Shown: in pieces, positions 4,281 to 8,295 of the stretch
Numbering within the stretch: position 1 is the stretch's first letter
How the letters are laid out: the number at the start of each line of letters is the position of its first letter
Assembly: GCF_030540775.2 (NCBI RefSeq)
Contig: NZ_CP141266.1
Span: forward strand, 3,583,001-3,647,000
Direction of reading: 5' to 3'
Source of the DNA: Flavivirga abyssicola
GTDB taxonomy: Bacteria; Bacteroidota; Bacteroidia; Flavobacteriales; Flavobacteriaceae
DNA: 64,000 bases
Position numbers and translations under genes: made by a program
Notes under the pieces: generated by a model
Databases searched by the model: none
What the model was told of the DNA's origin: nothing
What the model saw: the letters and a program-made list of their open reading frames with translations, nothing else

Positions 4281-4369
4281 GGAGAGGTGCCTGAGTGGCC
4301 GAAAGGAGCGGTTTGCTAAATCGTCGTACCTAGAAATAGGTACCCTGGGTTCGAATCCCAGTCTCTCCG
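4281..4369 (+). tRNA. tRNA-Ser(GCU)
   Basis: The sequence folds as a class II tRNA. The acceptor stem pairs GGAGAGG with TCTCTCC and the discriminator is G at 4369. The anticodon loop is TTGCTAA, giving anticodon GCT (reads AGC/AGU). A long variable arm is closed by ACCTA-GAAA-TAGGT, and the T-arm is CTGGG-TTCGAAT-CCCAG. The CCA end is not encoded. Confidence 0.95.
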
Positions 4370-4386
4370 CAAATAGATAACCAATT

Positions 4387-4503
4387 CGGGGTGTATCACG
4401 CTAAGGCGTGACAGGTCTATCCCGGTCGAAGATGACGCCGAAGGAGTTATTATCGCGCCGCGTTTGGGACGCGGAGGTCGTCATGCTTGAGGCGTGACCA
4501 CCC
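4387..4503 (+). pseudogene. degenerate tRNA-Pro-like unit 1 with insert
   Basis: The unit starts with the tRNA-Pro 5' end (CGGGGTGTA), preceded at 4376-4386 by the last codons of a missing GIY-YIG gene. About 55 bases are then inserted in the D-arm region, including the hairpin TCACGC-TAAG-GCGTGA. The tRNA resumes with TCGCG and an intact anticodon arm CCGCG-TTTGGGA-CGCGG. The T-arm is replaced by a stem TCATGC/GCGTGA, followed by CACCC, which could still pair with the acceptor GGGTG. It lacks GTTCGAAT and cannot be a normal tRNA. See the intact copy at 5077. Confidence 0.75.
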
Positions 4504-4513
4504 AATAAAAAAC

Positions 4514-4762
4514 ATGGAGTATATAGTATACATATTATATAGTCAAAAACGTTCACGATATTATGTGGGTCAAACAAATAATATCAATAAAAGATTAGAA
4601 AGACATAACAATGGTTTAGTTCCTTCAACAAAAGGCGGATCACCATGGCAATTGATAAAAACTTTAGAAGTTGCTAATAGACCGGAAGCATTAAGGTTGG
4701 AAAACAAAATAAAGAAAAGAGGAGCTAAACGATTTTTAAAAGATAACCAATTCGGGGTGTAG
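4514..4762 (+). CDS. GIY-YIG nuclease domain protein, copy 1
   Basis: The protein has 82 residues and consists of a single GIY-YIG domain. It shows the paired motifs YIVYIL and YYVGQT near the N-terminus, the conserved Arg in KRLERHNNG, and the catalytic-type Glu in ALRLENKIK. Members are related to the UvrC N-terminal and homing-endonuclease nuclease domain; the cellular role of these stand-alone flavobacterial versions is not established. The ATG at 4514 was chosen because it aligns with the start of copy 2; nine upstream in-frame codons are tRNA-like sequence. The stop codon TAG at 4760-4762 lies inside the 5' end of the following tRNA-Pro-like unit. It differs from copy 2 at two residues only (NIN/NIK and RPE/RSE). 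Confidence 0.85.
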   Translation: MEYIVYILYSQKRSRYYVGQTNNINKRLERHNNGLVPSTKGGSPWQLIKTLEVANRPEALRLENKIKKRGAKRFLKDNQFGV

Positions 4763-4826
4763 CGTAGCCCGGTTATCGCGCCGCGTTTGGGACGCGGAGG
4801 TCGTCACGCTTGAGGCGTGACCACCC
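4753..4826 (+). pseudogene. tRNA-Pro-like unit 2 with replaced T-arm
   Basis: Bases 4753-4802 match the intact tRNA-Pro through the acceptor 5' strand, D-arm, anticodon arm (TGG) and variable region. The T-arm is then replaced by GTCACGC-TTGAG-GCGTGAC, a 7-bp stem, followed by CACCC, which can still pair with GGGTG of the acceptor. The GTTCGAAT loop and the terminal CG-A are lost, so it should not function as a tRNA, although a tRNA-like fold is retained. Confidence 0.8.
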
Positions 4827-4837
4827 AATAAAAAAAC

Positions 4838-5086
4838 ATGGAGTATATAGTATACATATTATATAGCCAAAAACGTTCACGATATTATGTGGGTCAAACA
4901 AATAATATCAAGAAAAGATTAGAAAGACACAACAATGGTTTAGTTCCTTCAACAAAAGGCGGATCACCGTGGCAATTGATAAAAACTTTAGAAGTTGCTA
5001 ATAGGTCGGAAGCATTAAGATTGGAAAACAAGATAAAGAAAAGAGGAGCTAAACGATTTTTAAAAGATAACCAATTCGGGGTGTAG
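4838..5086 (+). CDS. GIY-YIG nuclease domain protein, copy 2
   Basis: This is the second 82-residue GIY-YIG copy, 80 of 82 residues identical to copy 1 and starting 324 bases downstream of it. All family motifs are present (YIVYIL, YVGQT, R in KRLERH, E in RLENK). Its last codons and TAG stop (5084-5086) overlap the first ten bases of the functional tRNA-Pro, so the gene and tRNA are physically interlocked and on one strand. Both copies have open frames and conservative differences, which suggests recent duplication with coding function kept. Whether the product acts on the tRNA gene, on the repeat, or has a repair role is unknown. Confidence 0.85.
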   Translation: MEYIVYILYSQKRSRYYVGQTNNIKKRLERHNNGLVPSTKGGSPWQLIKTLEVANRSEALRLENKIKKRGAKRFLKDNQFGV

Positions 5087-5151
5087 CGTAGCCCGGTTAT
5101 CGCGCCGCGTTTGGGACGCGGAGGTCGCAGGTTCGAATCCTGCCACCCCGA
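5077..5151 (+). tRNA. tRNA-Pro(UGG)
   Basis: This is a complete cloverleaf: acceptor CGGGGTG/CACCCCG, discriminator A5151, D-arm closed by GCG/CGC, anticodon arm CCGCG-TTTGGGA-CGCGG (anticodon TGG) and T-arm GCAGG-TTCGAAT-CCTGC. Its first ten bases are also the end of the GIY-YIG gene. It is the only intact one of three tRNA-Pro-like units here. Its final 12 bases plus C5152 recur at 16256-16268. Confidence 0.95.
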
Positions 5152-5152
5152 C
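5140..5152 (+). repeat. att-like direct repeat, left copy (tRNA-Pro 3' end)
   Basis: The 13-mer CTGCCACCCCGAC at the 3' end of tRNA-Pro is repeated exactly at 16256-16268. Identity to a tRNA 3' end is the usual form of attachment sites of integrating elements, so this may be the left boundary of an ~11-kb island. Confidence 0.55.
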
Positions 5153-5210: not shown

Positions 5211-5585
5211 GTTTTTATGCATTTTTTTTGATGCCAAACAAAACCATTTAAAACCAATAAAAAGGTGTGCAATTAGGTGTGCACTTTGTTGCTAAAATTG
5301 TTGTAATTTTAAAAAGCTTTTAAGAACAATTTGACTTTTGTCTTTACAAAACTGGTGTGTTTTTATTTCCTCCTTAGTTTTGTAAACACACTTTATTTAG
5401 GGATTATTTATATGTTAGTGATTTTCTGTAATTGTTGACTTTTATCAGGGAAATACTTTCATAATTCTAAGATATTTGTTGTTTATAGTTAAGTTAAACA
5501 ATTTTAAAATGTTTGTCTGTGGAAATGTAGTAATTTCATCGAAGGAAAACTATAGATAGACTAAAGTAAGTGTTTATTGATTAGT
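5211..5585. other. gene-free gap with direct and inverted repeats
   Basis: No gene is visible. Two direct repeats AGGTGTGCA lie at 5263-5271 and 5275-5283, spaced by 12 bases. A perfect 11-bp inverted repeat TTTACAAAACT / AGTTTTGTAAA lies at 5343-5353 and 5376-5386, with no T run. Repeats of this kind next to a tRNA attachment site resemble integrase arm-type sites or regulatory sites of a lost element; this is inference. Confidence 0.4.
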
Positions 5586-8081
5586 TTACGGTTGCTCAGA
5601 TGTGCCATAAAAATATATGAGAATATTATCCAATTGCTCTTTCCATGTATTCCAATTGTGATTTCCGTTTTCAATAATATTAACTTTTAATTCATACCCT
5701 TTGTTTTCTAAAATGTTAACCATAGGAATATCTTGTTTCTCAGTACCCCTTCTAGTACCATAACTTAAATAAATTTTTAAATCCTTTTTAGGCTTTAATT
5801 CGTAAGATTTGTAAATATCAGGACAGGTATGGAAAGCAGGGGATTGCATAGCTATATTTTTAAAAATATGAGGCACTTGATCCCCAAAATACGATGCTGC
5901 TAATCCACCAAAGGATACACCTAAGATTGTACGGTCTTTTCGATTATTACTCACGGGGTATAACTTTTCAATTTTGGGAATTAATTCATCTGTGAAAAAA
6001 TCAACAAAATGAGGATTACATAAAAACAATTCTTGTCTAATATTTTTCCAGTTTTCATTTTTATCTCTAGGGTCTAAAAATATTGCAGCAACAGGCTTGA
6101 TAATATTATTTACTATTAAACTATCTAACGTTTTTGATAGCTTGCCTTTTCTAATATAGCTATAGCCGTCATTTATATAAATAACAGGAAGTTTTTTGTT
6201 TATTTTATCGATTGGAGGTAAATAAATCTTATAAGGTAAGGCTTTCTTTAAAATAGGACTATTTACTAATTTTCCATTAGATAAACTACCTTTTAAATCA
6301 GGTAAATAATTAATGAGTTTAGAATATTTTTTTGCCTTTAGATTGGCAATTTTTTTGTAATTGTTTACTTTTTCTGAAGGCACTTTTACAGGGAAATTTA
6401 CAATTTTATCAGCTATTTTCGTAAACTCTAGGTATCTATTTGTTTTATCCATTAAAGAAAGTAAATCCATCTGTCCTTCATAACGATATGGTTCCGTAGC
6501 AATATTTAAGCGATATATTTCTTCTGCTTTTTTATAATTACCATCTTTTATGTAATAAGATGCTAATAGTTTTCCTATTCTTGGAGCTGAACTAATAAAA
6601 AAAGCTTTCTCCATGTATTTATATCCATCTTCCTTATAACCAGAATCATACAATAATTTCCCTAAATGTGCATCTGAAAAACCATGATTATAAGTGAACA
6701 TAGATAGAGAAATTATTTTTTCTCGATCCAAAGCTTTTTTATTACTCAAGGTATAATCTCTAAAATGTTTGATTCCAATACCTTTATTTATTAAAATATA
6801 AAAACTTGCTAAAGCCAAAACAATAAAAAACAAACGCATACCATAAATGAGGTGCTTATTTAATCTAAGAATAAAAACTTTAAAATTACCAAAAGTAACA
6901 ATCAAGGCAAGACCAAATAAACCAAGAAACATTAACAAAAAATTACTAGATGGAGATGTAAATAATGCTAAAACACTTACACTCATCAGTAAAACACAAC
7001 CTAATCGGGTTTTGGGATTTATTTTCATTTTTATGATCAAGTATAAAATCATAGAAAAAGAAATAAATAAAGCTAATAAACCAAACTCATAGGCTATCAA
7101 CAAATAATCATTAAAAGGTGTAAATACATAACTTGCATTTTTAATTTCTTCCCATGATCTTTCTGCCTCTAGAAAATAATCAGCTTTTGCTCGATTATAA
7201 CCTCCCGAAAAAGAAAATAGCCCATGACCTAAAATCGGTTTTTTTCCAATTTCTTGTAAAGTTATTTTGGCAACTAAAGCCCTTCCATTAACAGATTCAG
7301 GTTTTAAGGAATATAAAAATTTACCAGTGAAAATAGATATTACAATAAACAAGACAGCTCCTATTATTTTTTTTGTAATTGGAAGTTTTTTAAGAACTAG
7401 CTTGCTCTTTTTTGAAGTAATAAATAATACTATCATTGAGCATAATAGTGATAACCAAGTTGATCTTGAGTTTGTAATGACAATAATTATACCAATAAAC
7501 AAAAAACAGATTGCTCCAATTATTAGCATGTTTTTTTGTTCAATTTTATTTACTATGAAAAACCACATTAAACAGCTAAATCCAATACCTAGGTAGGCTC
7601 CTAAAAAATTAGGAGTTTTAAAGGATCCTAATAATTTAAAATAGTCATTACCTGCTTCTATTACTTCGAAATATTGTAAAAAAGCAGCTCCTGATTCTAT
7701 AATGCATGTAATTAAGACTAAGGAAAGTATAAAATGTATTAATTTATCAAAGGCTTTATTGATTAAAATCCATCTAAATAAATAATAACTAAGAAAATAA
7801 GCTATATATACCCATAGTTTTGAGTAATACATTGGTGCATTTGAAAAGTAAAAAAAATGAAATAGAAAACACCCAAAGCAAGTAAGTACAATTACATCAA
7901 ACCATGTGAATTTTATCAAACTAAAGCCATTATAACAAGACTTTGTAAAGCCCCAAAATACTAAAATAGTTATAGTGATTAATCTTAATTCTTCTAGATT
8001 TAACTTAAAAACTAAATTACAAATTAAAGAAGTGCTAAAAATTAGGCTCAAAAAAATACTATCCAATTTTTTTACTTTCAT
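5586..8081 (-). CDS. O-antigen ligase/polymerase-like protein fused to TPR and esterase domain
   Basis: The first ~420 residues form about ten to twelve membrane helices with an O-antigen ligase (Wzy_C-like) core, including a periplasmic-loop motif with GKKPILGHGLFSFSGGY. A region of TPR-like helices follows (about 440-580). The last ~220 residues form an alpha/beta-hydrolase of the esterase D type: VIYINDGY, a nucleophile elbow GVSFGG (Ser723 counted from this start), and a late His in NGNHNW. The ligase part would join or polymerise glycan repeat units at the outer face of the inner membrane; the esterase could remove or transfer acyl groups. The ATG at 8081 precedes the first membrane helix; an upstream in-frame ATG at 8135 would add 18 residues. 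It stands alone at the island's left end. The fusion is unusual. Confidence 0.75.
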   Translation of the reverse strand: MKVKKLDSIFLSLIFSTSLICNLVFKLNLEELRLITITILVFWGFTKSCYNGFSLIKFTWFDVIVLTCFGCFLFHFFYFSNAPMYYSKLWVYIAYFLSYYLFRWILINKAFDKLIHFILSLVLITCIIESGAAFLQYFEVIEAGNDYFKLLGSFKTPNFLGAYLGIGFSCLMWFFIVNKIEQKNMLIIGAICFLFIGIIIVITNSRSTWLSLLCSMIVLFITSKKSKLVLKKLPITKKIIGAVLFIVISIFTGKFLYSLKPESVNGRALVAKITLQEIGKKPILGHGLFSFSGGYNRAKADYFLEAERSWEEIKNASYVFTPFNDYLLIAYEFGLLALFISFSMILYLIIKMKINPKTRLGCVLLMSVSVLALFTSPSSNFLLMFLGLFGLALIVTFGNFKVFILRLNKHLIYGMRLFFIVLALASFYILINKGIGIKHFRDYTLSNKKALDREKIISLSMFTYNHGFSDAHLGKLLYDSGYKEDGYKYMEKAFFISSAPRIGKLLASYYIKDGNYKKAEEIYRLNIATEPYRYEGQMDLLSLMDKTNRYLEFTKIADKIVNFPVKVPSEKVNNYKKIANLKAKKYSKLINYLPDLKGSLSNGKLVNSPILKKALPYKIYLPPIDKINKKLPVIYINDGYSYIRKGKLSKTLDSLIVNNIIKPVAAIFLDPRDKNENWKNIRQELFLCNPHFVDFFTDELIPKIEKLYPVSNNRKDRTILGVSFGGLAASYFGDQVPHIFKNIAMQSPAFHTCPDIYKSYELKPKKDLKIYLSYGTRRGTEKQDIPMVNILENKGYELKVNIIENGNHNWNTWKEQLDNILIYFYGTSEQP

Positions 8082-8295
8082 ATGCGCAAACCTTATCAAA
8101 AAAAATAATATACCCCTCTTAAAAGAATAATACACCCCTCTTTAACCATATCTAAAAGGCAGACATTTACTATGTTAAAAATCAGGTGTTTACTATATAT
8201 TTAAATATGTGTAAATATTTTAATTCAGTTGCAAATTAAACAAATAAATAGTTTATGCTAAATTTTACTTTTTTAAATAACACAAAAGGATAAGG

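Follow-up and report, generated by a model that had tools for sequence, protein, structure and literature searches.

GIY-YIG nuclease genes interlocked with tRNA genes: a candidate family of minimal, target-regenerating selfish elements in Bacteroidota

Selfish genes that reside in essential, conserved targets must spare their host, and introns and inteins do so by splicing. tRNA genes are known integration sites; islands carried by tyrosine recombinases use them and leave tRNA pieces behind. In Rickettsia and cyanobacteria, palindromic elements that form perfect hairpins are inserted into the arms or loops of structured RNAs. The closest known system to the locus reported here, judged from the available part of its description, is SegB of T-even phages, a free-standing GIY-YIG homing endonuclease that adjoins tRNA genes and cuts inside them (PMC13096335). 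SegB drives a 718-bp tandem repeat of tRNA-Tyr and segB, in which the 5′ end of the tRNA shares microhomology with the 3′ end of segB; each unit contains a complete tRNA-Tyr and a SegB shortened at its C-terminus, and the survey presented in that part of the report covers proteins of phages and archaeal viruses (PMC13096335). No description of a bacterial chromosomal form was found among the titles and abstract openings listed in searches of a literature collection with few subscription papers and preprints. The tRNA-embedded GIY-YIG elements described here seem to form a largely overlooked class of selfish DNA, parasites of tRNA genes that do not destroy their target. They appear to use a solution other than splicing: a spare piece of the target is carried, and the target is restored.

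The tRNA-Pro(TGG) locus and its nuclease genes

The 64-kb stretch of DNA analysed (the window) belongs to the source genome, G000, of a Flavivirga-like flavobacterium; G-numbers denote genomes and L-numbers loci of the comparison set. Two 82-codon GIY-YIG ORFs lie in tandem on its forward strand at 4514-4762 and 4838-5086, with a spacing of 324 bp, and pairwise comparison of the repeated stretches gave 345 identical columns of 355. Both ORFs matched PF01541 in Pfam, with E-values of 5.2e-15 (4514-4762) and 5.4e-16 (4838-5086); the two proteins scored 59.1 and 55.9 bits, the curated cut-off being 22.6. The tandem units of ~324 bp with 82-residue GIY-YIG genes, proposed from the letters alone in the original prediction, were thus borne out. 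So was the claim that each nuclease gene ends inside the 5′ end of the next tRNA-Pro. ORF 1 ends within a second tRNA-Pro copy and ORF 2 within the intact tRNA-Pro; in both, the gene/tRNA overlap is 10 nt and the stop codon TAG forms tRNA positions 8-10. The only tRNA-Pro(TGG) found by ARAGORN in the window is at 5077-5152 (+; also an Rfam tRNA). This last copy, the putative regenerated target, is indeed the sole intact one, and a spoiled tRNA-Pro copy stands directly before each nuclease gene.

The upstream neighbour of the locus is tRNA-Ser(GCT) (4281-4370, +; ARAGORN). The same order is found at the empty site L152 of a relative, G002, where tRNA-Ser is followed by the leader and an intact tRNA-Pro. 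The left insertion edge (4376-4395, +) consists of the native leader GATAACCAATT and tRNA-Pro positions 1-9, and matches this empty site. In the first tRNA-Pro copy, a hairpin, TCATGCTTGAGGCGTGA, plus CCACCC (4481-4503, +) replaces the T-arm and the 3′ acceptor strand. A second hairpin, TCACGCTAAGGCGTGA (4396-4411, +), and foreign sequence form a break after position 9; the D-arm is gone, and beyond the break only tRNA positions 21-51 remain (4450-4480, +). The middle copy (4753-4826) retains positions 1-51, identical to the intact tRNA (4753-4803, +), followed by a perfect hairpin, TCACGCTTGAGGCGTGA, and CCACCC (4804-4826, +) in place of the T-arm. The predicted fold of this copy is a cloverleaf with a substituted T-arm and is not more stable than those of shuffled sequences (z = -1.5); the score of the copy against the Rfam tRNA model (27.6 bits at 4755-4826) is slightly below the cut-off of 29 bits. 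The pseudo-tRNA-Pro acceptor showed little sequence variation among the copies compared. The expectation that incomplete copies keep the acceptor, D-arm and anticodon arm and have the T-arm replaced is correct for copy 2 and wrong for copy 1, in which the D-arm is not kept.

The remnant that leads the locus had been read as the trace of an earlier, lost nuclease copy. We found no support for this reading. A third gene copy at the left edge was considered and rejected: the empty site L152 already has that leader and tRNA start, and a lost earlier gene is therefore unnecessary. The stretch GATAACCAATT-CGGGGTG resembles the tail of an ORF because the final codons of the window ORFs (DNQFGV) themselves consist of the native leader and the start of tRNA-Pro.

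Two features were observed 3′ of the locus. A direct repeat, GGTGTGCA, occurs at 5264-5271 and 5276-5283, downstream of the intact tRNA-Pro, and a similar double repeat, AGGTACAAC, lies 3′ of tRNA-Leu in L004; both are possibly integrase binding sites. The 849-codon frame next door (5586-8135, -) looks by eye like a membrane O-antigen-ligase-like part fused to an esterase-like part, which we take as a provisional description.

The core residues Y6, Y17, G19, R27, H31 and E63 were invariant in 18 and in 49 sequences; these GIY-YIG core residues (Tyr, Tyr-x-Gly, Arg, His, Glu) presumably have catalytic roles. The AlphaFold2 model of copy 2 had a pLDDT of 93.4. The nearest solved relatives by profile and fold were UPF0213 (1zg2) and Slx1, with I-TevI weaker, and the 82-aa protein corresponds to a bare catalytic domain with no obvious extra DNA-binding module. 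dN/dS between the two window copies was 0.08; full-length unsaturated pairs gave 0.04-0.34 in one set of comparisons and up to 0.38 in another; the nuclease ORFs are evidently under purifying selection. The window protein had no match at 1e-5 in 50,697 phage records, a search blind to remote homology, and none in plasmid sequences. The window DNA matched 38 plasmid records; the 20 listed cover only 10-16% of it, at the tRNA parts. Carriage by plasmids or phages was rejected because the window protein was unmatched in both.

Linkage to tRNA genes across Bacteroidota

A second case is present in the source genome, at tRNA-Leu(CAA) (L004). The anatomy of the window is not a product of chance, because it recurs at other tRNAs, including this one. 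At a threshold of 1e-6 the Pro-type protein had matches in 10 of the 12 genus genomes, and at 1e-8 in 83 of the 299 family genomes; the weak genus matches L029, L037 and L040 are other GIY-YIG genes with no tRNA alongside. The family set was extended by 80 further clusters taken among the matches listed in the 1e-8 search, with 7 listed clusters left out and clusters sharing identical starts counted once. A gene was scored as linked when a same-strand tRNA lay within 60 nt 3′ or 300 nt 5′. Among the matches listed for Flavobacteriaceae (L001-L148), 102 of 119 clusters with at least 56 bits, a line drawn after the scores were seen, adjoin a same-strand ARAGORN tRNA; below 56 bits, 6 of 18 listed clusters are linked. 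The gene precedes the tRNA in 76 of the 119 listed clusters (layout A) and follows it in 26 (layout B); 17 have no ARAGORN tRNA within these distances. L049, counted as layout B, is probably a layout A locus interrupted by a contig end. Five of the 17 unlinked clusters are at contig edges. L066 and L072 contain tRNA pieces by eye; L086, a mis-grouped cluster, has tRNA-Asn between two genes; and a same-strand tRNA lies 88-413 nt downstream in L027, L059, L070, L091 and L103, the last also at a contig edge.

Linkage extended beyond the family. A profile of 18 diverse members matched 73 of 196 order genomes at 1e-12 and 226 of 395 phylum genomes at 1e-13, both upper bounds because ordinary GIY-YIG relatives are included. 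When the best match per genome was taken from these searches (56 loci, L209-L264, of which 7 places, including the window, were already in the family set), 51 were tRNA-linked under relaxed ARAGORN settings, with which spoiled copies may be called as well. Of the 5 unlinked loci, 4 lie close to contig ends; the fifth, L239, is followed by a hairpin-bearing tRNA-like piece, as judged by eye. As a control, we inspected 20 successive weaker-scoring clusters of short GIY-YIG genes (1.5e-17 to 2e-16 in the order search; repeat copies and one G167 place skipped). None had a same-strand tRNA in the 2-3 kb around; these genes have 88-133 codons, except for one short piece, and are UPF0213-like by eye. 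Likewise, none of the 9 other-type GIY-YIG genes of the source genome (of 12) is near a tRNA.

The original prediction named tRNA-Pro as the target. The element is seen there, and its range is wider: at least a dozen anticodons are occupied over the phylum sample. Those used include Pro(TGG, GGG), Arg(TCG, ACG, CCT), Leu(CAA), Ala(GGC), Met(CAT), Asn(GTT), Asp(GTC), Val(TAC), Phe(GAA), His(GTG) and, by eye, Ser(TGA). The genes were not found away from tRNAs without repeat structure, the tRNA overlap is not unique to this genome, and the number of tandem copies is not fixed; tRNA linkage recurs in related genomes and copy number varies, as the original prediction had implied. Remote nuclease relatives in candidate-phylum or unassigned MAGs adjoin, by eye, an apparent tmRNA 3′ end (L275) or 5′ end (L269); tmRNA may be an additional target.

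A unit comprises one GIY-YIG gene of about 80-95 codons and a part-copy of the cognate tRNA. By the general plan, the gene is flanked on one side by a spoiled tRNA copy, usually with at least one hairpin, and on the other by an intact copy, which is 3′ of the gene in layout A and 5′ of it in layout B, its mirror image. Regeneration of the tRNA at the 3′ end, as originally proposed, therefore applies to layout A and not to layout B. Among the matches listed, 72 of 76 layout-A loci have, upstream of the gene, 12 nt or more from the 5′ part of the tRNA; the last nucleotide of the gene is exactly tRNA position 10 in 38 and position 23 in 12 of the 76. Layout-A fragment ends cluster at positions 22 (32 fragments), 51 (15), 9 (13) and 11 (11). 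In layout B, a tRNA copy was seen by eye 3′ of the gene in 21 of 30 loci and none in 9; its anticodon arm or T-arm is typically swapped for a hairpin. The original prediction also made the tRNA a processing signal; such a role is unlikely to be general, since most layout-A pseudo-copies stop short of the acceptor strand.

Hairpins of at least 7 bp occur within 120 nt upstream of 43 of 75 layout-A genes among the matches listed, versus 2.5 expected from shuffles. Similar palindromes were found at 1 + 5 other places of the source genome with no tRNA nearby. The palindrome CCTGCCTGCCGGCAGGCAGG and its variants recur there in apparently intergenic stretches (L279, L280, L282, L283 and L284). CCTGCCTGCCGGCAGGCAGG is evidently a genome-wide palindromic repeat, copies of which also mark pseudo-tRNAs. 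The idea that the hairpins are private to these elements was rejected; they appear to be borrowed, because such palindromes are present elsewhere in the genome.

In 43 arrays, 12 have decayed copies far from the intact tRNA, 4 show the opposite and 27 are ties; this polarity is a trend only, and the count includes L225 (for; far copy at a contig edge) and L104 (against; runs of N). Layouts A and B meet at L099, where a single tRNA-Arg(TCG) is preceded by two tandem units and followed by a broken nuclease piece.

Occupied, empty and decayed sites within the genus

In a tree of 113 nuclease proteins (83 columns, 51 of 110 inner branches open), the layout and tRNA labels required 35 changes, with "none" treated as one label and L110 and L148 labelled Ser(TGA) by eye. 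Shuffled labels required a mean of 85.8, and 0 of 200 shuffles were as low. The nuclease clades evidently follow tRNA identity.

At tRNA-Leu(CAA), 7 of the 12 genus genomes carry a full-length ORF (G000, G004, G005, G006, G007, G009 and G010), presumably functional. G001 has a broken ORF and G003 a hairpin scar without ORF; G002, G008 and G011 are empty. Thus, empty, full-length and degenerate alleles coexist among relatives at this site. tRNA-Pro(TGG) is represented by two genes per genus genome, one of them interrupted by a contig end in G010. In G000, G006 and G011, occupied and empty identical copies occur side by side in one genome, and in G004 both genes are occupied. Occupied and most empty sites have the same intact tRNA-Pro, at 76/76 identity. 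Between occupied and empty alleles, the intact tRNA-Pro and 11 nt of leader are unchanged, and the other tRNA copy is destroyed. Because the alleles are alike there, a recognition site within tRNA-Pro or these 11 nt would not be destroyed, and insertion would then not abolish the target site as it does in classical homing. The idea, taken from L068, that the intact tRNA is recoded and cut-resistant was rejected as a general rule, tRNA-Pro being the same at occupied and most empty sites. Scars without ORF at tRNA-Leu or tRNA-Pro (L189, L162 and L167), consisting of tRNA 5′ pieces and hairpins next to an intact tRNA, could be used for dating losses.

Synonymous third positions of the nuclease at the tRNA-Leu locus (first 69 codons) were compared with those of the adjacent prs in 11 of the 21 pairs of 7 genomes; the pairs are non-independent and p is uncorrected. 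Nuclease divergence was below that of prs at p < 0.05 in 5 of 11 pairs: G005/G006 (5/60 vs 81/282, p 0.0005), G000/G005 (6/59 vs 78/281, p 0.004), G000/G006 (1/66 vs 34/298, p 0.01), G005/G010 and G006/G010. It was above that of prs in 3 of 11: G006/G007 (22/46 vs 77/284, p 0.009), G000/G007 and G005/G007. No difference was seen in the other 3 of 11, G000/G004 (18/63 vs 84/282), G005/G004 and G000/G010. The nuclease at tRNA-Leu evidently has a history separate from that of the neighbouring prs, since a uniform rate difference cannot yield both directions; these comparisons point to horizontal movement apart from the flank.

Outside the window, the source genome has a second tRNA-Leu(CAA) 3′ piece (positions 26-83, 98%) on the strand of the intact gene and 27 kb away from it (G000:C1:2030016-2056979; L004/L179), the pattern expected when a genomic island integrates at the 3′ end of a tRNA. 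Because this second piece allows for an integrated island, the mosaic flanks downstream of tRNA-Leu were dropped as proof of tRNA breaks.

Proposed mechanism, alternatives and known systems

A minimal selfish element that resides in a tRNA gene and restores a functional copy of it, the central idea of the original prediction, is well supported by the anatomy and by comparison: units occur at fixed sites, present, absent or decayed, and are also stacked in tandem. We consider it fairly likely that they form a family of homing-like, target-regenerating elements specialised on tRNA genes. The nuclease probably cuts its cognate tRNA gene, and would thereby drive insertion and expansion of the unit. 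In this model, a cut or nick in the intact tRNA gene would leave a broken end still homologous to the tRNA start (layout A) or the tRNA end (layout B). This end would recombine with the spoiled tRNA copy of an element carried by a further copy of the chromosome or by DNA entering the cell, and copying across hairpin, gene and tRNA would insert one unit and restore an intact tRNA. The hairpin would shield the spoiled copy from cutting and so keep it usable as template. With the target regenerated, the host would survive and more units could join beside the intact tRNA. The chances are about even that these elements make up a phylum-wide Bacteroidota class in which each nuclease lineage is tied to one tRNA species, the destroyed part is supplied, the spent copy is tagged by a palindrome and units stack themselves without intron or intein.

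The strongest fact against cutting is that the intact tRNA-Pro adjacent to the element has the same sequence as the empty one. Since a single genome can contain identical tRNA-Pro genes in both the occupied and the empty state, cutting within the tRNA body would have to be weak, context-dependent, absent or tolerated through repair. SegB raises the same question, and the available part of its description discusses limited cutting and recombinational repair (PMC13096335).

Other readings account for part of these observations. The nuclease could act on RNA or on invaders, as a tRNA-linked toxin or defence enzyme (e.g. an anticodon nuclease), with the hairpin pseudo-tRNA as decoy or mRNA regulator. 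The pairing of nuclease clade with tRNA, the purifying selection on the ORFs and the cloverleaf folding still possible for pseudo-tRNA-Pro copy 2 agree with this; however, most layout-A fragments end at positions 9-38, where no tRNA is possible, the PADLOC match is weak and partial (about 19 bits over 29 residues), and the fold fits DNA-cutting enzymes (Slx1, I-TevI). Such a role, which we regard as unlikely, would by itself leave unexplained why the tRNA gene is the site of insertion, why some sites are empty and why the nuclease has a history separate from that of the neighbouring gene. A domesticated host gene that aids tRNA expression or maturation, its tandem units being ordinary duplications, would also show low dN/dS, and the interlocking of gene and tRNA would place it inside the tRNA transcript leader. 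Its patchy presence (83 of 299 family genomes with the Pro-type query at 1e-8), the empty state of that tRNA in close relatives, the scars and broken copies, a history different from that of the neighbouring gene and the existence of both 5′ and 3′ layouts make domestication quite unlikely.

Passive hitchhiking, in which tRNA recombination hot spots and slippage repeats carry along a nuclease irrelevant to its own spread, is consistent with the weak array polarity and with identical empty sites remaining beside occupied ones. Yet other short GIY-YIG genes of the order-wide sample are not linked to tRNAs (0 of 20 clusters), the clades are isotype-specific and selection keeps the frame open, and we judge hitchhiking to be distinctly improbable. 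The tRNA fragments on the gene flanks recall attL/attR-like pieces left by integrase-driven integration of an ICE or prophage. Against this, the units are about 300 bp long, and no integrase gene, only the GIY-YIG frame, is present in the window units; among the matches listed, it is the 5′ part that is duplicated (72 of 76), not 3′ ends alone; and the window protein is unmatched on plasmids and phages. Integration remnants are thus a very improbable explanation. A group I intron was rejected, since a contiguous intact tRNA lies beside the gene and no Rfam intron match was obtained at E up to 1.

If the target-regenerating model is true, few autonomous mobile elements would be smaller: a unit measures about 300 bp and has one 80-codon gene. 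With a known tRNA for each of their many lineages, the elements would form a natural series on how a bare GIY-YIG domain gains DNA specificity. They also bear on genome annotation: tRNA calls and short-read assemblies can break at these arrays, and several matches are at contig ends.

The elements differ in several respects from known systems. Islands integrated at tRNAs share the site; here, the units are about 300 bp, the window units have no integrase, and in layout A the 5′ part is duplicated. Unlike the insertions of Rickettsia and cyanobacterial palindromic elements, the hairpins here lie in the spoiled tRNA copy, with breaks recurring at 9, 22, 24, 28 and 51. UPF0213/YhbQ-like proteins, also present in the source genome, have a similar size and fold (1zg2), but 0 of 20 sampled weaker clusters (UPF0213-like by eye) are beside a tRNA, and their subfamily-profile score is lower. 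The GIY-YIG endonucleases of group I introns of the I-TevI type share the fold, the conserved target gene and the cycle of gain, decay and loss; here, there is no intron, and the mature tRNA is restored through duplication, not splicing. With SegB, as far as the available part of its description allows comparison, the elements share a GIY-YIG nuclease next to a tRNA and tandem tRNA-nuclease units, seen here in 43 arrays, and they may be the cellular equivalent of the tandem amplification recently described for SegB in phages. By the same partial comparison, SegB is phage-borne, whereas the elements here are chromosomal, with one tRNA per clade; all tRNA copies but one are spoiled, the window nuclease ORFs are complete, and the 82-aa protein is a bare catalytic domain.
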